NCBI GenBank assembly: GCA_905220665.1
Contig: CAJNAR010000144.1
Coordinates: forward strand, 868,001-932,000
Source of the DNA: Albugo candida
Taxonomy: Eukaryota; Oomycota; Peronosporomycetes; Albuginales; Albuginaceae
Direction: 5' to 3'
Length of the DNA: 64,000 nt
Shown here: piece by piece, positions 6,419 through 36,797 of the stretch
Numbering within the stretch: position 1 is the stretch's first letter
How the letters are laid out: each line of letters begins with the position of its first letter
The notes under the pieces: model-generated
The model's input: the letters and a program-made list of their open reading frames with translations, nothing else
Databases searched by the model: none
What the model was told of the DNA's origin: nothing
Position numbers and translations under genes: made by a program

Positions 6419-6531
6419 ACTGTTGCAATCATATAAACTATAGAAGGCTACTGTAACGAATCTTGATCTATCCTACTTTCATGTACCACACAATAGTAAA
6501 CATCTTCTACGACCACTCCCAGTTTCTTTTG

Positions 6532-9500
6532 ATGGATCATCACTCACGATTCCCAACTTCTTCCGCGCCTTCGACGGCGTCTTTCGAGGACTACAGTGCC
6601 ATCGACACGTCTTTTTTACAAACGCAACCTTCTCAAACGCTTCAATTTGACGAACCGTACGCTACCCCATCTCGGTCGTATGAATTTATTGAATCTGTTG
6701 CCGATTCTTCGCTTCCCAACCAGATGAAAAGTCTCAAATTTGAAGAAGCAGTTGAAGAAGAGGATGAAAATGATGGTCAGAACCATTATGATGCAGTACT
6801 TCCAAAAGAACTCCCTGCCCACGCGTGTGCGTACTGCGGTCTTCATGATCCTGCGTCGGTTGTCAAGTGTGTTGCGACCGACAAATGGTTTTGTAATTCC
6901 CGTGGAAATACTTCTGGCTCGCACATAATCCAACATTTGGTGCGGTCGAAGAATAAAGAAGTCGCTTTACATCCGGATTCTCCGTTAGGTGAAACAGTAC
7001 TGGAATGTTACAATTGCGGATGTCGTAATGTATTTCTGCTTGGTTTTATTCCCGCCAAACAAGATTCCGTTGTGGTACTACTGTGTCGAGATCCGTGTTT
7101 GCAGATGAACGCGTTGAAAGATATGAGCTGGGATATGTCACAATGGCTCCCACTTATTGAAGATCGTAGTTTTCTGTCGTGGCTGGTCAAAATTCCGTCG
7201 GAATATGAGCAATTGAGAGCAAGGCAGATAAGTGCAAATCAGATTGCAAAATTGGAAGAATTGTGGCGGGAAAACCCTCTGGCTACATTGGAAGATGTGG
7301 ATCGTCCAGGTGTGGATGACGAGGTTGCGCCCGTTCTTGAACGATACGACGATGGATATCACTATCAGAATATCTTTGCGCCGCTTGTCAAAATGGAATC
7401 GGACTATGACCGAAAAATGAAAGAAGCGCAGACGCAAGATAACGTACACGTTCGTTGGGATCTTGGACTGAACAAAAAGAGGAATGCGATTTTCAGCTGT
7501 AATCGACCAGATTCTGAAATCAGACTGGTTCCAGGTGACGAAATTCGTTTGCGTCTGGGACCTAGCTCGATTCTGCTGTATGGTGGAGAATGGGAGGGTT
7601 CAGGGCATGTGCTTCGCATTGAAGAGTCAGAAGTGACAATGGAGATGCGAAACAATGTTGTCCCAGTCGAGATAACAGATGGATTTCTAGTTGATTTCGT
7701 GTGGAAAGCGACCTCATTTGATCGCATGCAAGCAGCTATGAAGACATTTGCGGTTGACGATACTTCACTGACTGGCTACCTGTATCACAAGATATTGGGA
7801 CACGATGTCGATGTACAAGCTCTTCGAGTTCCCCGATCAATTGACACAAAGCTATTGGCTCCGGGTCTTCCGGAATTGAATCCGCCACAAATGGAAGCCG
7901 TCAGAGGGGTCTTATCACAGCCATTGAGCTTGATACAGGGACCTCCGGGTACTGGAAAAACAGTGACTTCTGCATCAATCGTTTATCACATGTCACGGCA
8001 AAATATGGGTCAAGTCCTTGTTACTGCTCCTAGTAACATTGCGGTTGATCATCTAACCGCCAAGATTAGTGCGATCGGTCTGAAGGTTGTCCGATTGGCA
8101 GCCAAAAGCCGCGAGGCAGTGTCTTGCTCGGTCGAACATCTGTCCCTTCACACAATGGTCAAATTGCTTACATCGCCTGACAAAGCCGAGCTTCGTAAGT
8201 TGATGCAACTTAAGACCGATCAAGGCGAACTGTCTTCACAAGACGAGAAAAAGTTCAAGTCTCTCAAGCGTCAAGCAGAGCGGGAAATTCTGCAGGCTGC
8301 AGATGTAATATGCACCACTTGTGTGGGTGCTGGCGATCCACGCTTGTCAAACTTTAGATTTCGCCAAGTTTTGATCGATGAAGCTACCCAAGCCACGGAA
8401 CCCGAATGTTTGATTCCTATCGTGCAAGGTGCAAAGCACGTCGTTATGGTAGGTGATCATTGTCAACTTGGTCCCGTGGTCATGAATAAACGAGCGGCCA
8501 GCGCCGGCCTAAATCAATCGCTTTTCGATCGTCTGTTGAAATTGGATCATCGTCCTTTCCGACTCCGCGTACAGTATCGTATGCATCCCTGCTTGTCTGA
8601 ATTCCCTTCAAACACATTTTACGAAGGAGAGCTACAAAATGGAGTCTCTTCGACTGAGCGGCAGTTGAAAAATCTGGATTTTCCATGGCCAAATCCCAAC
8701 AAGCCAACTTTCTTCTATATCTGTTTGGGAGCGGAAGAAATCAGCTCGTCAGGAACAAGTTATCTCAATCGCACTGAAGCAAGCAATGTGGAAAAAATCG
8801 TGACTGCATTCCTAAAATGCGGAGTCCTACCGGCTCAAATTGGTGTCATCACTCCGTATGAAGGACAGCGGGCGTACGTTGTTAATTACATGCAACGTAA
8901 TGGTTCCATGCGCGCTCAACTATACAAAGATGTCGAAGTCGCAAGTGTGGACTCGTTTCAAGGGCGTGAGAAGGATTTGATCATTCTGTCTTGTGTACGC
9001 TCTAATGAGAACCAAGGTATCGGTTTTTTGAGCGATCGAAGACGGCTGAATGTCGCGCTGACTCGGGCGAAATATGGAGTTATCATTCTGGGCAATCCGC
9101 GCGTATTGGCAAAGCAAGAGCTGTGGAATCGATTACTGAATCACTACCGTGATCATCAACTGGTTGTTGAAGGTCCGTTATCCAATCTTCAGCCCTCTTT
9201 CATGCAATTTCCCAAACCAAAGCAGAGTCGCTCAGGCAATGATGGAAATCGATACTCTCGTCCCCGAAATGGTCCATTACCTCCTCTGGACTCACGGTTT
9301 GATCCACGATACGATCACATGTCCATCCCGTCTAATGGAATGGGTATGATGGGTGAACTTGGTCCTGAGTATGGAATGCCGCCGCCAGGTCCCATGGGAT
9401 ATGCACAGCATCACCCATCAAACTCGCACTCTCTTAATCATCAGCTACCTCACCAGCGTGTTCCTCGCGGGAATATGAATGCCAACAGTGGCGGATTTGG

Positions 9501-9711
9501 TCCTTTGACCCAAGATAACACTTCTCTGCACCCTCTTGGCACAGGGTTGGATGGACCCTTCACTCAAGCCGCTCAAACGCAACCGTTCAGTCAGTTGTCA
9601 GTGGGCGATAAATTTGGACTATCACAAGAAACGTTGTCGTACGATCAGAGTTTCCAAACGCAAAATATGGCAATGTCTCAAGATTTGCGCCACAGCCACG
9701 ACTTTTATTAA
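6532..9711 (+). CDS. UPF1: UPF1/RENT1 superfamily-1 RNA helicase of nonsense-mediated decay
   Basis: Intronless, 1059 aa from ATG 6532. Cytoplasmic ATP-dependent RNA helicase that marks mRNAs with premature stops. The cysteine/histidine-rich UPF2-binding domain spans about residues 95-185 ([25 protein letters not shown]). The helicase core has Walker A GPPGTGKT near residue 470, Walker [11 protein letters not shown] near 616, [10 protein letters not shown], and the motif V/VI region ([24 protein letters not shown]). The C-terminal 170 residues are Pro/Met/Gly/Gln-rich, with SQ dipeptides that in other UPF1 proteins are phosphorylated by SMG1. An upstream in-frame ATG (6463) would add 23 hydrophobic residues; 6532 is preferred because the protein then starts in the usual low-complexity segment. 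Confidence 0.97.
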
Positions 9712-10148: not shown

Positions 10149-13100
10149 TCAAAATGCCATTCTAAAGGTAGTCGGTGGAATGATATTGGCCACTTGACAC
10201 CTCTCCGACTTTGAATAACGCTTTTTGATCACGGTGAGATTATTGGATGGTGACGAAGAATACAACACTTTCAATTCAGCCATACATTCCCGTAAATCTG
10301 ACCACTTGTACATTGTGGCATCAGCCAGTTCTTTCGTCTGTTTGGAAAATACGTTAGATTTAGTAACTTTTCGAATGACAAATAAATACCATTGGGAATC
10401 CTTCAATTGTGTACAAAGCCAGCGATAAGCAGCAAGTTGCGACCACAGAAGGATAATACTTGAGCATTTGATATTCCTGCAATGCTAATTCCAACAAATA
10501 GTGCGCCAACATTGACGTTTTCATACTCACCGGAGGGATCATTCGCTCGTAAACATTGAGGAAGTCCAGTGCTACAGAGAATAGCTTAGTAAACGAGAAG
10601 GAATCGAAGCTGGGCAAACTGTACCAGTTGGTACTGCCAGCGTGAAATTGAGTGCGTTTAACAATTTCTCCTCCATCTTCAACACCTCGGTGGATGTGTA
10701 CACATTATCTGCACACATGGCCAAATCCTCGACTCCAATATATGACACATCTTCACATTTTGATGCTACGTGAAGACATGTAGCGCCTAAGAGCTGGAAT
10801 CGGGTCTTCTTGACCATGACGATATTGAGAAAGCGATCAGTATAATTGACGGCCAGAAAGGCTGTGCGTAGACACATCTCAAAGACATCAACGACTGAAG
10901 GTATAGAACTTAGCAACGATATACCATCCACGAAACTATCACTCGTACCTTCGATCAGCCAGTCCACCAGCATTGATCGATGTGTCGGTCTTAAAGTTTT
11001 CTGACGACTGCACATCCCAACGAGTTAGTCAATATCAAGTTTTATACGGAGCAGAGCTTAAATCACCTGAGATAGTCAAACCGTCGCCAAATGTCCGTTT
11101 CTGTTTGCCTTAGATACGCATGGAATAAGATGACATGCTCTGGAGGTATTCCGGGTTTTCCATCGGTCAAGCAGTACTGTATATCTCTTAGCGATATGGA
11201 AGGGATCAAAGACTGCGGAAACGCGTCATGCTGGGCAAAGTACGGATGCCGAAGAGCGTCCTCCGCAGTTATACGCTGCTCGGGGTTGTATATAAGCATC
11301 TTAGACAAAAGGTCGAGACCAAGATCAGATACTCCAGAAAATAATCGTCTTAACGGTCTTCGTTTCCAGTTGGGAAATGTGAAGTGATAATTTGGCAAAG
11401 ACGTGAATCCAGGCCAGGTGCCAGAGTTTGGAGTCGACAACTTACTAAATATCTGGAAAAGCTGATCAATCTCTGATATCCCCGTGAAAAATGGTTTGCC
11501 CAGAATCATCTCAGCGAATATGCAGCCAACAGACCAGATGTCCACAGCTGATGAGTATCCTCTAACACCCATCAATATCTCTGGCGGCCTGTACCAAAGC
11601 GTCACAACCTCCATTGTGTACTCTCGTTTGGGTATGCCTGTAGCACGAACAAGAGCAAAATCTGATACTTGCAGCACGGCATCGTCTATAAATTCACATT
11701 AGAGCTGCATAGATACATTCTGTTTTAGTTGTTATACCTAGCGAGATCGGATCTGTTGTGTCTATCAAAAGATGCTTTGGCTTGAGATTTCGATGCAGTA
11801 CTCCCCTTCTGTGACAATAAGCTATTGCGTCCAGTATCTGATGCAAAAGTCGACGAATCTACGGTGATACATCATAAGAATAGGGCATGACTTTTGCATG
11901 TGACTGTAATGGATCGTACCACTTTCTCGGAGAGCACACGACCACCATTTGGATCTCCAGTCGGATTGATAATACCATGCAACGTTCGATCCACGTACGG
12001 GAAGAACACATAAAGTTCATCCTTTGCAAGACTGATCATCTCAATAGATGCGATATTACTATGCTGAAAGCCCCGGAGAACAGCCAATTCTCGTAGCATA
12101 TAATAAGGTACGCCTTCTCCCTAATACATCATACTTGCTGAGTAAAGACGAGCATTAGAAGTTTGTGATTAAGTACCTTTGGAAATACGCGAGCTTTCTT
12201 CATCGCTAATATTTTGCCTGTCGAACGCTGATAGCATTTGAAACAAGTTCCTTCCGTTCCTTTGTTTTTCATCCCGAGATTCTGAAAGTTTAGCCAATTC
12301 ACACTTCCGTCACTATTCAGACTAGGAAGATCTCGACACAGCGATTGACTGCTCGTGATGGTTCGCCACTTTCTTGAAACCTGACCCAGAATGGGAAGAT
12401 TCTCTGCGGACACCAGAAATGAAAAGACATGAAGGATCATATCGGACGGCTGCATGTCGATATGTTCCTTGTTCTTCAAAACTCCTCCAGCGGGGAATTG
12501 CTGCAGGCTTGACTCTGAGAATGCCTCACTATCGTCTTCGTCATGTGCTGCTGGTGAAGCGATTAAAATCTCACGTCGAACCAATTTATTGGCACGATGC
12601 TCCACAGCTCGGTCAGATGGATCAATGGAGAATCCTTCTTCACCAGGTTCTTGATTGTGCACGTGTTCACGCGCGTACGCCACATAGGAGGTCTCCGAGC
12701 TGTCCTCTTTACTTCTTGTAAGCTTCCTTTTACCCAAAGCTACAACAAAATCGTCAGGAATCTATGAATGACTTGGCCAAGTACCCACCGGCAGTAGAGC
12801 CATTTGAGCTGCCATATCTCCTTTCCTGGCCTTGTATGTCGCTAATGCTTCTCGAACGTGGAGTTCCTCCTAGCTCCACCAATAAAGTGTCGGTCGAATT
12901 AGGCACAAATGTTGATGCTTCCCAGTTCGCTTGTCCATGATCGAGTGCCCTAATACCATTGGGATTCGAAGACTTGGCCTGTCGCCTTTTTTTGTACGGA
13001 GTTGTTTCGACGACGTTTAACAGATCTCGAACGCTGTTTCCTCTCTGTGGCTCGGACGCGCGCGAATTTTCTTCCGTTTGTACATTGGCATTACTGAGTA

Positions 13101-13179
13101 CATTTGCTGTTGAGTCACGCTGATCCATTTCATCGGAATCGACTGAAACCCGCTCTCTTTCTGCGGAATTTCCTTCCAT
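10149..13179 (-). CDS. F-box / CDK-like (pseudo)kinase / cyclin fusion protein
   Basis: Nine exons, in order 13179-12789, 12739-12177, 12120-11920, 11858-11738, 11685-11067, 11007-10949, 10894-10625, 10571-10390, 10337-10149. Every junction is GT-AG, keeps frame, and introns are 49-61 nt; 864 aa. Residues 1-225 are Ser/Asn-rich and likely disordered, with a basic KKRRQAK patch. An F-box lies at about 226-261 (SDMILHVFSFL, SRKWRTITSSQSL). A CDK-type kinase follows at about 285-590: AMKK lysine near 311, GVPYYMLRE in place of GVPSTAIRE, HRNLKPKH at 407-414, DFA at 434-436, activation-loop YT at 448-449, EVVTLWYRPPEI and DIWSVGCIFAEM. From about 632 both cyclin folds are present (RSMLVDWLIEV, FLAVNYTDRFLN, HVASKCEDV, LQEYQMLKYYPS). 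The catalytic Asp is Asn and DFG is DFA, so activity is doubtful. F-box proteins recruit targets to SCF ubiquitin ligases; cyclin F is the nearest analogue but has no kinase. Confidence 0.88.
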
Positions 13180-13534: not shown

Positions 13535-15476
13535 ATGCAATCGAAAGGAAAGCATTTGCGCTGTCGCATTTGCGGAGGTTTTGGGCTCGGTTTGGTTCGT
13601 AACGTTGAGAAAATCTGTACACATTGCGCTCGGTGATGCACACTTGCGTATTTTTCATATAAAATCCATTGACGCACTGACTATAGAGAAACAAAAGCAT
13701 TTTTTGACCCCGAAAAATGCAAGTTTTGCAGCGAACAAGGCTTTTATGATATATCTCCGGATGCTGACGGAAAGATCCTAAAAAAGGTTGTAGGCGAAGA
13801 TATTTAGAATGTTACATGACACCAAAGGCTGTAGATTGTCCGCGAAGGCGACAGAAGCGCAAAATGGATCGAGGAAGGATGCCCCACTTTTGGTCAGTCG
13901 ACACGCTCTGTTTCTCCAGCACAAGGGTTGACAGGATCTTATCAGTGCAATATATTGGACGCTTGATGGATGGCTCAATATTTGATACAACGTAATCCGA
14001 TAAAGCGATGGGATTGACTGCGATGCTTATGTTGTGTTGATGGAATCAGACGTGATGTTGTGGACGGAAAGCATGTGGGAGGCACTGATGATGAATTTGA
14101 ATTCCAAATTGGACGAGGTTTGCGTTGTACAGTCCTGCGTTTCGATGCTGAGTATTTATTACAGGCAAAGTCATTAAAGGATGGGATATCGGTGTTATTT
14201 CCATGAAGCTTGGAGAGATGGCTCGATTCATCATCAAGCCCGAGTACGCTTATGGATCACAAGGATGTGCCCCAAAAGTATAAATTGCGCGGTACTGATT
14301 TGGTAGAAGATACCTTTTCCTTCTTTGGATAGATCGAGCCGGATGAGACTCTGGATTTTGAGATCGAACTGGTTCGATTTGGAGTATGTGACTCTGATTG
14401 TGGCTGTACCCAATCGCGTTATTGATAGCTGAATTACTAGGATCCCTTGCCTCGATTCCCAACTCCTGCGGAGCTCGCTGAAACCAGGAAGCAACAGCAC
14501 GAAGAAAACAAGAAAATGCTGGAGGAGAATCCTCCTCCAACTGTCGGTATGATCCCATCACATATGCAAAAACCATCAACTAACGCCCAGGAACCCAGAC
14601 GAGCGCGTACGGCTTGCCACGGAAGAAAAGCAGAAAGGAAATTCTTGCATAGCCGAAAAGGATTATGAAGCCGCTCAAAAGCATTACGATTCAGTAAGAC
14701 CATTTGCATGAGAGTATACAGAGTATAAGCGAACCACGATGGATGTTTTCAGGGCTTTGTAAACATATTCTACGCCAAGGACGAATGGGATCAGCTGCTA
14801 TCCGAACAAGATCGTGCCGAAATCAATCAGATAAAGGTGCGTTATTTCGCTTCAATCAAAGTCTGATTGTGTGACGAGCGCAAGCTTTTAGCTGCTTTTG
14901 TATCTGAATCGCGGACTCTGCAAGCTCAAATTGAACAAGATCGAGGACGCATTATGGGATTGTGATCAAGTTGCGTTGTAGCATTGATTTGGCTCCAGAA
15001 TTCTAATGAGCTTGTTGCTATGTGCACTACGGAAGGCTATCTCTCTGGATGCTACAGCTAGCAAAGCCCATTTTCGACGTGGATTGGTTTACACCGAAAA
15101 ACTCAAACAAGAATTCGAGAAAGAGCGGAATGGGCAGTTTTGGGTCATTGATAAAGGCGTCAAGTATGCAAAGGAGGCCCAAGAAAGCTTCAGAAAAGCT
15201 TCAGAGCTTTGCTCTAATGCAGATGCTGGTATCGCTCGCGGAATGCTCGAGCTTGAACGTCAAAAGGTGGAAATATAATCCTTGTGATCGATGGCAACTG
15301 ATTTCCGATTATAGGCTCAACTCCAAAGATACGCTTCCAAATACAAAGAAGACGAAAAGAGATTGTATAAGGAGCAGATATTCGATCGGATGGTAGCGAA
15401 GAATAAGAAGCTGCAGGAAGAGGAAGCAAAGCGAGCCATGGAGGATGTATTCAAGGATATGCCAGCTCTAGAATGA
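13535..15476 (+). CDS. FKBP-type prolyl isomerase with TPR domain and N-terminal CxxC zinc-ribbon
   Basis: Thirteen exons: 13535-13632, 13687-13786, 13835-13892, 13946-13991, 14050-14117, 14165-14277, 14333-14383, 14441-14546, 14599-14693, 14753-14836, 14892-14969, 15036-15266, 15315-15476. All are GT-AG and frame-consistent; 429 aa. The FKBP domain retains the active-site residues ([42 protein letters not shown]), so prolyl isomerase activity is expected. TPR helices follow ([51 protein letters not shown]), then a charged helical tail. This is the layout of Hsp90 co-chaperones such as FKBP4/5 and plant ROF1. Unusual: residues 10-47 carry three CxxC pairs (CRIC, CTHC, CKFC), the first in a DnaJ-like CxxCxGxG context. 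The stop lies 53 bp from the convergent Tudor-SN stop. Confidence 0.88.
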
Positions 15477-15529: not shown

Positions 15530-18363
15530 TCAGTGTCCTTCATCATCTGATTCCACGTCACCATATCGCCACAGACAGAGCCGATTCTTCTTTGCTGCTG
15601 CTTGAGCGGCTGTGAGATCGTCCAATACCGCTTGCTGGTAGGAAGCAGCATCACGCACAGACTTTCGATCGATTCGAATGACTCCGGCTTGCAACAGGAC
15701 AGCAGAGATACTCTTGCCATTTTTGAACAAAGACACTTGCAGTCTACCCTGTTCGTCTCGTCCATGAACGCTTGCCGACAAAGTGTGTCCCCATGCGGTA
15801 TCGGCAAGCATGGTGGCGGCCTCATGACCAAATTCTTCGGTCACTGGCATCGATTTGACAAACCCAAACACGCATTCTTTGGCTTGCGGTGGAAAGTGCA
15901 TCACAGTGGAATCCAAAGGCCGAAGACGATTCACCGGCAACACATCGACATTTCCGTAATCAATGTAGCGAACTCGGACCTTTCCATCCGGCAATGAAGA
16001 TTCGACTTTTGCCCGATTCCAAACTTGACCGCTTTCGTCGGTGAATAGCGCAGCGCAAATGGTATTTTTTCGAACTTCAAATGTCTTCCCGCTGACGCCA
16101 TTCAAACGGGTGAATTCACCCAACTTTTCTTCGATTGTGGCACAGGTTCGAGAAGAGAGATCCTGGATGTAAAAGTGAGTCCCATTTGCAATTTCGGAGA
16201 TCTTCACGCGAGGAAGCGTGTCGTCAGCTGTTTTTGTCACTTGAATTAGGGCCAGCTTTTTCGAGACTTCAGCATCAGCGGAGCTCCAGTAGTTTTTCTT
16301 GCTTTGTTGAGCAGAATCTTCGGCACGTTTCAATTGAGCTGCCGTGCCTGTGCGCTCCACAGAGAACGCATCGATCCAAGCGAGTCCTTCGTTCAGAAGC
16401 ATACACCCAAAATTACTGCGTTCCGTCTTATTGGAATCAGTGTAAAGCGGTCCAAACGCATTTCCCCCACGATCCATGTCTTCAATCTCGACAGTCACCG
16501 ACCGCTGTAAAATGGTTCGCTTTGTGTACAATTTGGCTTGCTCTCCAAAAGGCTCTGCCTGAGCTGTCACGACACCCTGGCCGCCGTATCGAGTGGGTTG
16601 TGGGCATTTGATACCCGCTATCACAAAATTAACCATACAATTCTCTTTCGGGACAAACAGCTTGACGCGTGTACCGCTGTACACATATTCGACCACAGCG
16701 CGGAGTGTTTTCTCTCGGGATAAAAATGGAAGATATTGCTTTGCTTTCACAGAATCGAAGCATAAGTCGGTGTATCGCTGTCCAGTGACTACTTCTTTTC
16801 CAGAGTAAATTCCTTTTTTCTTCGTTTGTGCTGAGCCTTCCGCCGCGATCAGATCGTCATAATACGCGGATTTCTCATCTTCCGGTCGGTGTCGAACCAC
16901 TTCAGCGAAGCCAGCAGATACGACTTCAGACGCCACATTGGCCAGATTGGAGGTCGTATTCTCCACGTTTTTCTTCTTACTATCCATTAGAAACACTGAC
17001 GCGTATGTCATGAGCGCATTGTCATTAAGCATTGGATTCTTCTTCTCATAATCGACTTCGACTTTGACTTTTCTCCCGATGCAAAAATGTCGGACAAACT
17101 CTTTGGATTCGATTGCGTAAGGAGCATTGCTTTCTTGTCGTTTGGCATTTCCGAGTCGAGGAGCACGAATGGAAGACAGATAAAGTCGCTTTTCGACTGA
17201 TTTCTCGTCAACAAACACCACGATACAATCTCCACTGACAACTTCGATCACCGTTCCATTGAAATTTTGATCACATTGAAGTGCGGGTGGCTGATAATCT
17301 CTCCATACACGCAATTTGGCCGATTTCGCCTCTTTTTCAGCGCTTCGCATGGTGGCACGGACAGCGTAGCTTGTGTATTGACTGCTCCAATCCACCATCC
17401 GCGCATAGCCATTGCGAAGTAATTCCACACTGATATTTCTTCCCGACGGATGCACCACACTGCCATAGAAATTGCCAAATTTGTCAACTCCTTGCAATTT
17501 AACTTCCACATTACGGTGTAAGAGACGCATTTCGGTAAAGTGTTTAGCTTCTCTGGCAAATGGAGCTGGTTGTACGACTGTTGTACCTTCTGCTCCTTTG
17601 TCTTTTGACGCGTTATCAGAGATTTCGTTATTGAGGGCGGGAGGAGTTGTTGCGTTCATCCGTGGGCACTGAACACCTGCAAGTCCAAAATTGATCATTT
17701 GCATACTTGGTATCAGTAACACGCGCATAAACGCTCCTTCTCGGACATTATCGACCAATGCCGGAATCAACTTGTCCTTATTTTCCGCTAGAATCGATTC
17801 TGCATCCTCGACAGAGATATTCACCATCCATTTCACAGCTGCATACGGCCCAAATTCAGCTTCTTTCGTGTCATTTGGATCTTGATAAATTCCTCGTTTT
17901 TCAGCGATTGCTAACGCTTCCAATTGACGCAATTTGTCCAAATCGTACGTGAGACTCCCCTCATTGCCCTCCTGCTTCACTTTTGCGTATCCTCCCTGCA
18001 CCATGAGCGTATTCAAATGCTCTTCTCCATCCGCATTTTGCAGCCAAACGGATCCGAAGTCGCGATTGATCACATTCACGTGATATTCGACTTTGAAGCG
18101 AACAGTTTTACCGATACACAGTTTGCGAAGAGATTCTCTGCTGGCCCACGCATACGGCTACAGAAAACTGTGTAAGAGCGGAGACACATCAAGTCATGAA
18201 GCTGTACCTCGTTCGTTTGATCCGATCCACGCGCTAATTTGGGAGCCTGTAGGGAGGATAGGGTGAGAGTGAGTTCAGGAGGAGGACCGGTCTTCGCGGA
18301 TCCAACAAGAACAAGAGAGTCGCCCGATGTTACGGCTTTTACAGTAGCGGTTCCGGATGCCAT
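15530..18363 (-). CDS. SND1: Tudor-SN / SND1 (p100) staphylococcal-nuclease-repeat protein
   Basis: Exons 18363-18208 and 18157-15530, 50-nt intron, phase 0; 927 aa against about 910 in animals. Cytoplasmic RNA-binding protein of stress granules, RNA decay and small-RNA pathways. The joined N-terminus reads into the first SN repeat (VKAVTSGDSLVLVG, LRKLCIGKTVRFKVEYHVN). Further SN-like repeats contain GTVIEVVSGDCIVVF and RAVVEYVYSGTRVKLFVP, and a Tudor fold near residues 690-750 has FTDESGQVWNRAKVES and VRYIDYGN. A final partial SN segment ends in LCLWRYGD. Domain order and length match SND1. Start is the ATG at 18363. Confidence 0.95.
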
Positions 18364-18804: not shown

Positions 18805-20079
18805 ATGGTATTTAACGGAAATCGCTTTTGGGCTTCATTGATTGTTTTTGTCATACTGATCGAATCAAAGCCGTCACTTTGCTATTGCGAAGTCGAAAGT
18901 CAAAGTAGCTTTTACGACGATACAAACCAAGGCAGCAGTGAGACTTATGAAGCGGATTACTCTCATGTCAAATATGCTGTCCGGGATGGCATGATTCAAA
19001 GCAAAGGCGTCAATATCGGTGGATGGCTTGTGGCGGAGCACTGGATGACTTCTCAAGCGGATATATGGAAAGGTGTCAGCCCGAACGCCGTCGACCATGG
19101 CGAGTATCAAGCCCTGACGAATTTCACTGATACGAATGACTCTAGTTCTTTGCATGATCAATCGTTGACGCAATTTGATTGGCATCATAAAAACTTTATA
19201 ACAGAGAAAGAAATCAAAAACATACACGAAGCAGGATTTAATACTGTTCGAGTTCCTGTCGGATATTGGATCGTTGGATTCGATGAACATGACAAAAGCG
19301 GAAGCGGGCAATGGAAAAAATATCCGTCCAACGAGTTGGTTTATCTTGACACACTGATCAAAAGCTGGGCTAAAACACATAATGTGTCGGTGATGATCAG
19401 TATGCACGCCGCGAAAGGATCTCAAAGTGGTGCGGAACATTCATCGCCTGAAATGTATGGTCAAGCTCTCTTTGGGCAATATCCTGAAAACATACAGTCC
19501 ACACTCGACGCGGTTACCTTTCTGGCAGCACGATATAAAGACGAGGATGCGTTTCTTGGAATTGGACTTTTGAATGAACCAAGTGGCAGCACGACCAATC
19601 AAGTTTTATATCAGTACTATCAGGCCGCATATGATGCGATTCGCGTGAACGGCGGGAACGACTGTATCCTTACTGTTGCTCCTTTGCTATGGGAGCAGGG
19701 TCCAAAGCATCTGCTTGATTTGTTGCCTGGAAGCACAAATGTCTGGGTCGAATGGCACCGATATTTCATCTGGGGCTACGGAGATGATTCTGCCAATAAA
19801 ATACTGACCGAAGCCATTGACGCATTTCGTAAAGACGCCGAAAAGTGGAATGAGCTCAGTGATAAAAAGTTATACATTGGCGAATTTTCATTTGCAAATA
19901 CGGGTCAATTCACTGACGTGGAAGGGCTGCGAAAATTTGCGGCGCAACAAATGGACGTGCTGAAGAATATCGTCGAAGGTGGATGGGCGTATTGGTCGTG
20001 GCGGACATACGGCGACGAAGAAGGTCTATCTCCTTGGTCGTGTCGAAATATGATTCGAAATGGCATTTTTCAGGTGTAA
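18805..20079 (+). CDS. Secreted GH5 exo-beta-1,3-glucanase-like glycoside hydrolase
   Basis: Intronless, 424 aa. A hydrophobic signal peptide covers about residues 8-28 and ends near a Cys-rich SLCYC. Fungal and oomycete exo-1,3-glucanase features follow: GVNIGGWLVAEHWM, GFNTVRVPVGYW, MISMHAAKGSQ. The acid/base Glu is E258 in LLNEPSG and the nucleophile Glu is E360 in YIGEFSFANTG; a conserved WAYWSWRTY segment follows. The predicted reaction is hydrolysis of beta-1,3-glucan from chain ends, in wall remodelling or attack on external glucan. Substrate specificity within GH5 is inferred. Confidence 0.92.
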   Translation: MVFNGNRFWASLIVFVILIESKPSLCYCEVESQSSFYDDTNQGSSETYEADYSHVKYAVRDGMIQSKGVNIGGWLVAEHWMTSQADIWKGVSPNAVDHGEYQALTNFTDTNDSSSLHDQSLTQFDWHHKNFITEKEIKNIHEAGFNTVRVPVGYWIVGFDEHDKSGSGQWKKYPSNELVYLDTLIKSWAKTHNVSVMISMHAAKGSQSGAEHSSPEMYGQALFGQYPENIQSTLDAVTFLAARYKDEDAFLGIGLLNEPSGSTTNQVLYQYYQAAYDAIRVNGGNDCILTVAPLLWEQGPKHLLDLLPGSTNVWVEWHRYFIWGYGDDSANKILTEAIDAFRKDAEKWNELSDKKLYIGEFSFANTGQFTDVEGLRKFAAQQMDVLKNIVEGGWAYWSWRTYGDEEGLSPWSCRNMIRNGIFQV

Positions 20080-33191: not shown

Positions 33192-36100
33192 CTATGCGTT
33201 CGATGAGTCACTTCCACTGCTACTTATGGCGGCATGTGACTTGGCTTTCGCGGTGCGGATGACTAAAGCGACTTCTTTCGTTTTGATTCGATACGATTCG
33301 TTACTGATTGTGTCTATTGGACCATTCAGAAGCAAAGGAAGTGACGAGTTATTTGAATGTACTGTCTTGAGAGAAGCTTGAATCGCTCTTCGATCGTCTT
33401 CGCTCCAAACATTTGCTTCCACACGCGAATCAATGACGAGAAAAAATTCAGGATCGCTGTTTGTCGATATCTGAGCCGCCAATTCACTCGCACATGAGAA
33501 TTCCAGTGTGTAGGCTTCCAACATGTTGATACTTTGCCGGAATTGTGGTATGCGTGCGAATTGAACAAATTTTGGTGCGATTGAGAATGCGCTGCTACTT
33601 TGTCGAACCAGAAAGTCGATAAGGTCGTTTGATTTATATGATTCTTCATTTTCCGGTTTATATTGGTGGATGAGTTCTTTCTTCTTCGCATGAAGAAACC
33701 GCCAGGACGATCGATCCAACAACGCGATCGTGACGACTTGGTGAGGCAACGATTTGGATTCAGGACTTTCGAGTATTTCTGCAATTATACTTCGACCTTC
33801 GTACAATGAGAAACTCATCAATTTGCCCAGTATACATCCGTCCACAAGAATGCCTGTCAGGTGTCCTTGCCGACTGTCACGCAAGCGAATATGTTGGGTG
33901 GTCATACAATCTTGTACGCACCCTTTTTCCACAAATATGTTCCACACTTGCTGTCGAACGTCTTCCACTCGCATATGTTCTCCAATGACAATATTTTGCA
34001 CGAACGAATGGGTAGAATCTTGATCCGTTAGTCGAAGTATCAGCTCCGATGGAAGAATTGAGCTTTCTGGTGCAGCAAGTATGGATGGCGCCTCCGCAGT
34101 ACGATTGTACAGCATTAGACGACAATTGTATTCTCCTACTCCAAGCGGTATGCCTTCCACCACATGAATCGTATTGTTGTTTCCAATTGAAAGCTTGTAA
34201 AGAGTGCTGTCAATAGCTTTAAGCTCGATACCTGCAGTATTAGCCCCACGTAAGAGTTTGAACTGGTCAGCTGGGATACAAATCCGTTTCTCAATTTCGT
34301 TCTTCAAAGCGCGAACCGTCTCTCGCCGGTCGATGCGAATAGCTAATGTTGGTAATGTGGAGTAACGTATATTCACATTGATCATATTCGCCTCTTTCGC
34401 GTAGAATTTTGCAGCTTCTGAAGGTGCTTCTGGATCCTGACACTCTTCAACGATCACTTCTGTGCCACTTGCAACATACAAATCATCTTCGAGCTTTAAA
34501 GCCAATGTCTGAGGTGAGTTATCAGGGTTCAACATCGTGATTGGATTCTGTGAATAGGCTGCATAACTTCGTTTCAACATCCGAAAGTTGCTTTCTGCAG
34601 CAGTGAAGTTGAACTTGTTCCTGATCGTTTCATATAGTTCACCAACTGTGGAGTCTTGTGGTAATTGGATCCAGCGAGACTTGATGCTCGAATCGTTGCA
34701 TTGGGCCGTTGCCGGCAGGTAGCGCTTCACAAACACTTGCAACTTCTCTTCATCAAACTTTTCCCACTCTTCTTCGGCTTCTTTTGATTCCAAAAGTAGT
34801 TGATGTCCTTCTGAGATGCCAATCTCCTGACATGTTTTAAATAAGCGATCGTCATACGTATGCAACGCGATACCGTTGTAGTCGTTATAGCGACGCAGCC
34901 GGACGAGCTCAAGAGATTCAGGTAGAGTGATGCCCTGTTGAGTAAGTGATGCTGCATCGTTCTTGAATGTGTCGAACACTACTTTGACCGCTTCGCTAAT
35001 AGTCGTATCTTTGTATATCAAAATCTGCTTGTCCACTTTCTGGCCATAAGAGCCGCGTACAAACACTTGTAACATGATTTGTTTGGCACGTTCCAGTTGT
35101 TGACGTTCTCTAAGGCGAAATCTGGACTCTTCCTGCTCGATTCTCGCTTTCAAGTAGACGGGAATTTCTTCCTTCGAGACTGAATTTACATTGCGAGCCG
35201 ATGATAAAAGTCGATACATGAGCATGTAAGCACATGTGGTGTAGTTGGAGCGATACCCATATTTGTTCCCATTGGTCGATTGACCTCCAAAGGCTACACT
35301 GACGTCGTGCTCTGTGATTTCTGAAACGTGCGCATCATTAAAGTTGTACCATTTTCCATTTTCAAAATTCTTGATATACGCATAATAATGTCCACCGAGT
35401 GCACTACCGGAGTGCATAAGTACAGAGTACAGCTCATACACATTTGGTCCTTCCTCGAATAACCCGTTCACATCAAAGTCTGGATCCCAAGTATCTACCA
35501 CACGGTCTTCGCTACTGATTTGTGCCGTCTTTTCACAGTCAATCTCGTCTTGCACGGGCCAGAGATTCGATCTATCTTGTTCTCTATGCTTTTGCTCAAT
35601 ATCATGATCTTGCGTTCCTGAGCATCCATTGACTTTCCGCCGTTGCATCACCTCTAATTCATGACGTTCCAGCGATATTCTTCGTGCCAATTGCCCTTTC
35701 TTCCTGCTGTGAGTTGATTGCAGCTCAGCATCACCACTCGCACCATCGCCTTTTATCTCCTCATTTGACAGAAACGAGTTCATATCCAGATACTTTGGGA
35801 ATGTGATGCGATCGTGAAGTTTGATACGGTCCATTGTGTTGTAATCGAAATCAAATCGCTTCAACTGTAAGGAAAGCAAATACGGAAGCCGATGAAATTT
35901 GAGTCCTTTGATTGCATCCCTCTTCGTTTCACATTTATCGCATTTCCATTGATTTTCTTTGTCCAATACCTCCGGCTTGAGGAAAAACTCGAGTGCTTTT
36001 TCCAGACTTTCAATTTTGCGCACAGTAAATGCATTATCTTCCATGCCAAATGGACGAATTACCAATGAGAGATCAAGAAAGTGGTCCATACGACTGCTTT

Positions 36101-36797
36101 CGTACCCACAAGTACAGCATTTGACGTAATCTTTGAGTGTTCCACGGTATAATTCATTGACAAAGTCTTCTTTGCAAGTTCCTTTGAATGAATGCTCGAG
36201 CGCGTCTAAAAACACACGACATAGCTCTTGCACGTCGTGCTGCTGAAAGACGTCATTTCCTGTCCACCCAAAACTCCGCGTGAGTGATTTTGTGTCCACG
36301 CACGTCTTGGAAGTCGTCTGAAGCTTCGCAAAGAGCTTTTGAAGTTGAAGTGGAATATTTTCCTTCTCATCTTCAACTTCGTCGTCAGAATCCTGACTGA
36401 GCTCAATATTTGGATGAGCTACACTATTTTCAGCAACATGTGGGCTGATCTTAGGATATTCCCATTGATATAATCCTTGTCGGAATTCCGGTGTCATGTA
36501 TAGCGTTTGTAATAAACTATTCATGTAACAAGTTGCACCTTGATTAGATAGACCTGTCATGTTGCGTTTATTGGAACCGGTAGCGGGATTGGTCGAATGC
36601 ATGGAGGTGTTCAAAACGGACACCTTGTCTTCTAAGTCTGTTGGCTCCCCAGAGTTGTGGGAATGCACACTTTGTAATTCAGAAATCGTCTTCTTGAATT
36701 TATGACGCGGTGATTCGTTATATTGCACGCTTTGATCACTTTGTGATGGAATTGCGGAGTCTCCATTTGCAGCACCATAGACTTCGGGGCTGACCAT
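33192..36797 (-). CDS. USP47-like ubiquitin carboxyl-terminal hydrolase
   Basis: Intronless, 1201 aa. Cysteine protease that removes ubiquitin. Cys box at C90 in GLSNQGATCYMNSLLQT, then TRSFGW and QQHDVQELCRVFLDALEH. Zinc knuckle cysteines (CCTCGYE, CDKCETKRDA), LSLQLKRFDFDYNTMDRIKL and the His box SALGGHYYAYIKN near residue 470. The catalytic domain is split by an acidic insertion. The C-terminal 600 residues resemble the ubiquitin-like tandem of USP47/USP7. The match to USP47 is stronger than to USP7, and no N-terminal MATH domain is present. Residues 1-75 are Ser/Asn-rich. Confidence 0.92.
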   Translation of the reverse strand: MVSPEVYGAANGDSAIPSQSDQSVQYNESPRHKFKKTISELQSVHSHNSGEPTDLEDKVSVLNTSMHSTNPATGSNKRNMTGLSNQGATCYMNSLLQTLYMTPEFRQGLYQWEYPKISPHVAENSVAHPNIELSQDSDDEVEDEKENIPLQLQKLFAKLQTTSKTCVDTKSLTRSFGWTGNDVFQQHDVQELCRVFLDALEHSFKGTCKEDFVNELYRGTLKDYVKCCTCGYESSRMDHFLDLSLVIRPFGMEDNAFTVRKIESLEKALEFFLKPEVLDKENQWKCDKCETKRDAIKGLKFHRLPYLLSLQLKRFDFDYNTMDRIKLHDRITFPKYLDMNSFLSNEEIKGDGASGDAELQSTHSRKKGQLARRISLERHELEVMQRRKVNGCSGTQDHDIEQKHREQDRSNLWPVQDEIDCEKTAQISSEDRVVDTWDPDFDVNGLFEEGPNVYELYSVLMHSGSALGGHYYAYIKNFENGKWYNFNDAHVSEITEHDVSVAFGGQSTNGNKYGYRSNYTTCAYMLMYRLLSSARNVNSVSKEEIPVYLKARIEQEESRFRLRERQQLERAKQIMLQVFVRGSYGQKVDKQILIYKDTTISEAVKVVFDTFKNDAASLTQQGITLPESLELVRLRRYNDYNGIALHTYDDRLFKTCQEIGISEGHQLLLESKEAEEEWEKFDEEKLQVFVKRYLPATAQCNDSSIKSRWIQLPQDSTVGELYETIRNKFNFTAAESNFRMLKRSYAAYSQNPITMLNPDNSPQTLALKLEDDLYVASGTEVIVEECQDPEAPSEAAKFYAKEANMINVNIRYSTLPTLAIRIDRRETVRALKNEIEKRICIPADQFKLLRGANTAGIELKAIDSTLYKLSIGNNNTIHVVEGIPLGVGEYNCRLMLYNRTAEAPSILAAPESSILPSELILRLTDQDSTHSFVQNIVIGEHMRVEDVRQQVWNIFVEKGCVQDCMTTQHIRLRDSRQGHLTGILVDGCILGKLMSFSLYEGRSIIAEILESPESKSLPHQVVTIALLDRSSWRFLHAKKKELIHQYKPENEESYKSNDLIDFLVRQSSSAFSIAPKFVQFARIPQFRQSINMLEAYTLEFSCASELAAQISTNSDPEFFLVIDSRVEANVWSEDDRRAIQASLKTVHSNNSSLPLLLNGPIDTISNESYRIKTKEVALVIRTAKAKSHAAISSSGSDSSNA

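Follow-up and report, generated by a model that had tools for sequence, protein, structure and literature searches.

What does a protein do that joins an F-box, a kinase resembling a cyclin-dependent kinase (CDK) and a cyclin in a single chain? The question is raised by a gene on the minus strand of a 64,000-nucleotide stretch of the Albugo candida genome (assembly GCA_905220665.1, contig CAJNAR010000144.1, positions 868,001 to 932,000), which is called the window here. An earlier note on this DNA had described the three parts in one gene and had proposed a self-contained kinase plus ligase, a phospho-directed ubiquitin switch. Our results pointed to a different role. The gene probably encodes an old cell-cycle regulator that marks proteins for destruction and does not phosphorylate them.

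The coding span (10149..13179, minus strand) ran from the ATG at 13179 to the TGA at 10151-10149. The spliced translation comprised 2595 bases, corresponding to 864 codons and the stop. Eight introns of 49-61 bases were found, all eight with GT...AG ends and with phases 1, 0, 0, 1, 2, 1, 1 and 0. The nine exons in a single 864-residue frame described earlier were confirmed by this translation. The public A. candida protein was 99% identical, and the public A. laibachii protein, which has 864 residues as in the window, showed 92% identity. The residues around the eight splice junctions were compared with seven relatives and aligned with two exceptions. Junction 1 was poorly conserved and missing in P0021, and P0012 carried an insertion of three to four residues at junction 651. 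The deposited A. candida model (P0001, 859 residues) lacked five residues at intron 5. Because this stretch was present in the window and in 18 relatives, the exon model of the window is the better one at this intron.

A Pfam search of the spliced protein, a check suggested in advance, recovered an F-box-like domain, a kinase and two cyclin domains. The F-box-like domain (PF12937) covered residues 228-266 with an E value of 6.9e-8 and 32.6 bits against a cut-off of 24.3, and PF00646 gave 21.3 bits against 20.5. By the curated cut-off the product is an F-box protein. PF00646 also matched the F-box core in the raw genome at 12333..12449 (G000:C142:880333-880449, minus strand). The kinase domain covered residues 290-575 (E 3.4e-52), followed by Cyclin_N at 615-737 (E 5.5e-35) and Cyclin_C at 740-856 (E 1.7e-23), all above their cut-offs. 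No repeat family was detected in the Pfam scan of the window protein. The presence of all three parts in one gene, which fixes their stoichiometry, was upheld by the spliced frame, by the Pfam domains and by relatives carrying the same fusion.

The search for relatives gave 449 matches, of which the best 120 were listed. For alignment A1 (71 rows), 70 of these 120 were aligned with the window protein; P0120, which has HRD, was dropped from the family counts. The other 50 listed proteins were left out. Most of them were ordinary kinases or oomycete proteins that were either partial or nearly identical to others.

The active site of the kinase was altered at three positions, a feature that the earlier note did not mention. 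In exon 4 (11738..11858), the catalytic loop read HRNLKPKH, so that HRD was changed to HRN (N409) and QN to KH, with histidine (H414) in place of the magnesium-binding asparagine. In exon 5 (11067..11685), which also encodes the activation segment with T449, the kinase C-lobe, the linker and the cyclin N-terminal helix, DFG was changed to DFA (A436). In CDK2, D127 is the catalytic base and N132 a magnesium ligand. The N, H and A replacements occurred together in 70/70 aligned family rows. The motif HRN[LI]KxxH was found in 98 of 163 retrieved proteins, and 96 of these 98 had DFAL. Thus the HRD aspartate, the magnesium-binding asparagine and the DFG motif of an active CDK were absent from the window protein and from every family row. 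The ATP lysine, the helix-C glutamate, the DFG aspartate and the activation-segment threonine were retained; the first three were present together in 68/70 family rows, and the position of T449 held threonine in 69/70 and serine in one.

Further changes were seen in the N-lobe. Exon 2 (12177..12739) completes the N-terminal tail, including an oomycete-conserved motif there, and goes on to encode the F-box and the start of the kinase N-lobe with the GTEGTC loop and the AMKK lysine K311. In the glycine loop GTEGT, glutamate (residue 293) occupied the CDK tyrosine position in 69/70 family rows, with a gap in one. We take this tyrosine position to be Y15, the Wee1-regulated inhibitory site of CDKs, and Glu 293 might act as a built-in phospho-mimic. 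Helix C, encoded by exon 3 (11920..12120), read GEGVPYYMLREL, with PYYMLRE, instead of EGVPSTAIREI.

Judged by its sequence, this domain qualifies as a pseudokinase, with a CDK-type fold and conserved replacement of catalytic residues. Since the catalytic aspartate is replaced by asparagine and two more active-site replacements accompany it in 70/70 rows, phosphorylation by this chain is unlikely, and we infer a lack of kinase activity. The self-contained kinase plus ligase proposed earlier was therefore not supported. The changed site was constant across the family, which argues for use rather than decay.

The cyclin part was examined in the same way. Exon 6 (10949..11007) holds the start of the cyclin box with HRSMLVDWLIE, the docking patch. 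Exon 7 (10625..10894) holds the remainder of the Cyclin_N box including K697 and E726, exon 8 (10390..10571) the first part of Cyclin_C, and exon 9 (10149..10337) its end and the stop. The domain scored best against cyclin A2 (149.9 bits), followed by B1 (116.4), F (88.3), and then D1 and E1. The equivalents of cyclin A K266 and E295, which we take to be the CDK-contacting residues, were both present in 64/70 family rows. All five residues of the patch corresponding to MRAIL, presumably the RxL docking site, were found in 49/70, including 19/19 oomycete-type rows, of which three (P0006, P0009 and P0024) were so classed by their place in the tree. On the kinase, the stretch GxSEIDQLFQIF, which we take to be the CKS-binding site of CDKs, was conserved among the aligned relatives.

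AlphaFold2 models of two distant relatives placed F-box, kinase and cyclin as one body (pTM, the predicted template modelling score, 0.75 and 0.89), so a rigid body of the three domains is predicted. In the A. laibachii ortholog, the N-terminal tail was disordered, with pLDDT (predicted local distance difference test) values below 50 for residues 1-22 and 26-218. Exon 1 (12789..13179) encodes the disordered residues 1-130. The matched chains in the PDB hold kinase or cyclin alone, and therefore the fold search cannot show contact between the two. Docking of the kinase on the cyclin is predicted from the pTM values and the conserved contact residues. The PDB matches included 7luo, a construct of the Skp2 N-terminus and cyclin A. 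As a separate observation, the tail contained the motif EgfsIDPS.RaVEHRa.KlVRREIlIASP (residues ~168-195, within 12739-12177), which was common to most of the 19 oomycete-type rows and ends in a possible Ser-Pro phosphosite.

The relatives were then used to place the fusion in time. Among the matches listed, the full Pfam set including the F-box-like domain was found in Albugo and in further oomycete genera, namely Lagenidium, Pythium, Phytophthora, Plasmopara, Peronospora, Hyaloperonospora, Bremia, Peronosclerospora, Aphanomyces, Saprolegnia and Achlya. Also among the matches listed, kinase-cyclin members lacking a precomputed F-box occurred in the algae Choristocarpus, Discosporangium, Chrysoparadoxa, Tribonema and Phaeothamnion and in the thraustochytrid Hondaea. 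Choristocarpus and Chrysoparadoxa belong to Ochrophyta and Hondaea to Labyrinthulomycetes. With members in oomycetes, ochrophytes and a thraustochytrid, the fusion predates the oomycetes and is probably as old as the split of oomycetes, ochrophytes and labyrinthulomycetes. A recent fusion in Albugo was rejected because of the same span of relatives.

A hidden Markov model (HMM) built from the 19 oomycete-type F-boxes matched 34/50 other N-termini at E <= 0.01 and 0/250 shuffled controls. All five named algae were among these matches; P0105 and P0109, which have no N-terminus, stood outside the test. Pfam F-box-like matches at E <= 0.01, some under the curated cut-off, were obtained for 30/49 rows of alignment A4.

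In a kinase tree of 99 rows, one branch with 100/100 support separated 77 family rows from 22 others. P0123 (HRNLKPKH, DFAL) and P0126 (DFAL, with a catalytic loop off the motif pattern) fell within the family. The family row P0107 had DFS, and P0117, a row resembling mitogen-activated protein kinases among the 22 others, had HRNLKPGN. P0120 (711 residues, ENA source) lay among ordinary CDKs. This fusion of a CDK with a cyclin is unrelated to the family. It keeps HRD and DFG intact and has a PSTVLRE helix, is possibly an active one-chain CDK-cyclin, and had no F-box match in the HMM test.

Two apparent extensions of the range were not accepted. The dinoflagellate protein (Durusdinium P0070) grouped with the thraustochytrid Hondaea (100/99), and the chytrid protein (Batrachochytrium salamandrivorans P0094) adjoined metagenome proteins. 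By their position in the tree, both are likely contamination of those assemblies. No ciliate or apicomplexan member turned up by name in three protein searches (the first two covering the best 120 of 449 and the best 120 of 1489), a negative that is not evidence of absence, because the searches were restricted by protein length and by a word filter and ordinary CDKs were numerous.

In the A. candida genome, one copy was found, with 86-98% identity at the locus and at most 57% elsewhere. The best kinase match elsewhere by identity (C150, 57% over 98 residues) was an ordinary intron-split CDK with PSTALRE, LKPQNLL and DFGLAR, and another ordinary CDK (L029) had PSTAMRE, HRD and DFG. SKP1, cullin and CKS genes were present.

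Based on the above results, we consider that the protein acts as a substrate adaptor of an SKP1-cullin-F-box (SCF) ligase, in which a CDK1/2-like pseudokinase, clamped to the cyclin A-like domain of the same chain, serves as target receptor. From the residues and the models, we give this reading a probability of roughly 0.6. The F-box would bind SKP1 and thereby cullin, and the clamped pair would capture the targets. The likeliest targets would be proteins that dock on cyclins through RxL motifs; CDK inhibitors, or phosphoproteins presented by CKS, might be others. The targets would be presented for ubiquitylation and then degraded, with no phosphorylation by the chain.

Several points weigh against the adaptor reading. 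In the HMM test, 16/50 N-termini missed E 0.01, namely Hondaea P0060 (-1.2 bits), fourteen further rows and the unrelated fusion P0120, and 19/49 A4 rows had no Pfam F-box-like match. Some members may therefore have lost the F-box, lack it altogether or carry one that escapes recognition. The full docking patch was missing in 21/70 rows, in some groups at W648 itself and in several metagenome groups, so RxL docking is not universal in the family. K311 and D434 are kept, so that a nucleotide could still bind, and weak activity has reportedly been retained by some HRN kinases. The placing of the domains comes from predictions of relatives, the closer one 92% identical, without interface coordinates.

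A wider form of the adaptor reading is put forward tentatively, and we regard it as rather doubtful. Since before the oomycete/ochrophyte/labyrinthulomycete split, stramenopiles would have retained a one-chain target receptor of a ubiquitin ligase, in which a CDK-cyclin A pair is no longer an enzyme. Its dead, perhaps nucleotide-bound site and docking groove might recognise the marks that an active CDK reads, so that the inhibitors or RxL proteins carrying these marks are degraded. Such a chain would do in a single molecule, and without phosphorylation, what SCF-Skp2-Cks1-CDK2-cyclin A does with separate proteins.

Part of this family is already in print. The P. infestans kinome of 2010 gave four CDK-cyclin fusions, PITG_21617 among them, with an Asp-to-Asn change and confirmation by reverse transcription PCR (RT-PCR), and passages of that paper also gave related fusions for P. 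ramorum, P. sojae, Hyaloperonospora, ciliates and Theileria (PMC3019232). The window protein resembles these fusions in having a CDK-like kinase followed by Cyclin_N and Cyclin_C and in the D-to-N change in subdomain VIb. It differs in that the main text of that paper nowhere uses the word 'F-box', and the KH, DFA, PYYMLRE and GTEGT changes were not found in its passages on the fusions. Two P. infestans models, P0034 and P0039, have their first residue within the F-box and so hide it. Both are probably cut short, which may be why the F-box was missed in 2010. For P. sojae, a passage of another paper lists 'Cyclin, N-terminal' (Ps138788) as a multidomain protein that has counterparts in diatoms; it may or may not belong to this fusion family (PMC2705460).

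The databases name the family 'Cyclin-F' or 'cyclin-dependent kinase', contradictorily. An Achlya entry at NCBI reads 'cyclin-dependent kinase with F-box domain', a Plasmopara entry gives kinase and F-box, and UniRef gives 'Cyclin-F'. No paper on an F-box/CDK/cyclin triple family was recognised in the open-licence literature. The CDK-cyclin fusions in oomycetes mentioned in the earlier note are thus published, and the triple layout was met in database names and not in the open-licence literature. The finding is half known: the kinase-cyclin fusion with a dead residue has been published, and the F-box, the further active-site changes and the rigid triple body were not found in print.

The strongest alternative to the adaptor reading is a decoy. 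The module would hold RxL proteins or else regulators of CDKs (CKS, inhibitors, and kinases that activate or inactivate CDKs), and the F-box would mainly set its self-turnover. The contact surfaces would be conserved alike under such a role, and T449 is kept as threonine in 69/70 and serine in 1/70 despite the dead-looking kinase. A passage of PMC3019232 suggests that protein stability may be regulated by the cyclin part. Against a decoy, the models of two distant relatives set the F-box in a constant position next to the kinase, as expected of a positioned adaptor, and we consider a decoy unlikely.

An unusual active kinase is somewhat less likely still. Here, the N409/H414/A436 site would transfer phosphate or another group by a changed mechanism and couple this modification with ubiquitylation, in line with the earlier note. 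The altered site is invariant in 70/70 rows, whereas a merely dead site should drift, and this keeps the idea alive. The ATP lysine, helix-C glutamate and DFG aspartate kept in 68/70 rows and the activation-segment threonine are also in its favour. However, what we take to be the catalytic base and one magnesium ligand are both gone, and invariance would suit a nucleotide-bound structural site equally well. The authors of the kinome paper also write, in its passages on the fusions, that fusions with the D-to-N change may lack enzymatic activity (PMC3019232).

Very improbable is an ordinary cyclin F ortholog that gained a kinase domain, as the automatic UniRef name suggests. Many members are named 'Cyclin-F' there, and F-box and cyclin box occur in both. 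However, the cyclin domain is far nearer to cyclin A2 than to cyclin F. A search with the cyclin part alone, which covered proteins of about 475-1512 residues with shorter cyclins outside, gave 78 matches, of which 75 carried a Pfam kinase domain; the three without one (P0160, P0161 and P0163) matched weakly, with E values of 4.6e-29 to 4.3e-9. With cyclin A2 nearer and a kinase present, membership in cyclin F was disfavoured.

A wrong joining of neighbouring genes can practically be dismissed: the joining in A. candida itself is supported by the gene model and relatives, the same joined protein occurs in independent genomes, kinase and cyclin lie in single MMETSP entries named as transcripts (P0081, P0097 and P0098; the F-box HMM also matched P0097, E 2.8e-7, and P0098, E 5.7e-6, and failed with P0081, E 0.076), splicing restores residues common to relatives at most junctions, and the kinase-cyclin structure was confirmed by RT-PCR in P. 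infestans (PMC3019232).

Elsewhere in the genome, 18 Cyclin_N matches and 80 kinase matches (85 less five cyclin parts), both from scans that score best candidates, gave a single other pair in proximity, on contig C22. There, the cyclin match lay 943 bases upstream of the kinase match in the same open frame. The protein (L041:1193-3601, minus strand) is intron-free, with 802 residues from the first ATG, and has Cyclin_N at 122-254 (27.8 bits). After the cyclin, a degenerate CDK12/13-like kinase is represented by its C-terminal part, with HRS for HRD, GGF for DFG and no clear N-lobe. No F-box match was found in this protein, and its domain order is reversed relative to the studied gene.

Around the gene in the window, a UPF1-type RNA helicase (6481-9711, plus strand, one frame, 1076 residues) is convergent with it. 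The divergent neighbour at 13540-15476 (plus) has introns and appeared by eye to be an FKBP-type prolyl isomerase-like protein with an end resembling tetratricopeptide repeats. A Tudor-SN-type protein of 824 residues with staphylococcal-nuclease repeats and a Tudor domain lies at 15530-18004 (minus), a family 5 glycosyl hydrolase of cellulase type (424 residues) at 18805-20079 (plus), and a ubiquitin carboxyl-terminal hydrolase of 1201 residues with a weak ubiquitin-like match at 33192-36797 (minus).

If the adaptor reading is true, an ancient, strictly conserved pseudo-CDK works as a ubiquitin-ligase receptor, a natural case of kinase activity split from substrate recognition in a CDK-cyclin pair. 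It would give a handle on cell-cycle control in stramenopiles, among them crop pathogens, kelps and oil producers, and would allow the structures of F-box, CDK and cyclin to be studied together in one chain. The contradictory database names would also be explained.

The protein was compared with known systems. Cyclin F, in SCF-cyclin F, likewise has F-box and cyclin box in one chain; it captures targets via the cyclin hydrophobic patch and is not known to have a kinase domain. The protein described here differs in having a kinase and a cyclin domain of another type (A2 149.9 versus F 88.3 bits). SCF-Skp2 with Cks1 and CDK2-cyclin A shares the F-box, CDK and cyclin A-like parts, and a CKS gene and a conserved putative CKS-site stretch are found here as well. 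That system consists of separate proteins with an active kinase and leucine-rich repeats in Skp2. In contrast, there is one chain here, with a seemingly dead kinase, and no repeat family was listed by the Pfam scan. HER3 is an HRN pseudokinase with asparagine for the catalytic aspartate and the ATP lysine kept. Both features are shared by the kinase studied here, which differs from HER3-type pseudokinases in being of CDK type with its own cyclin and F-box.
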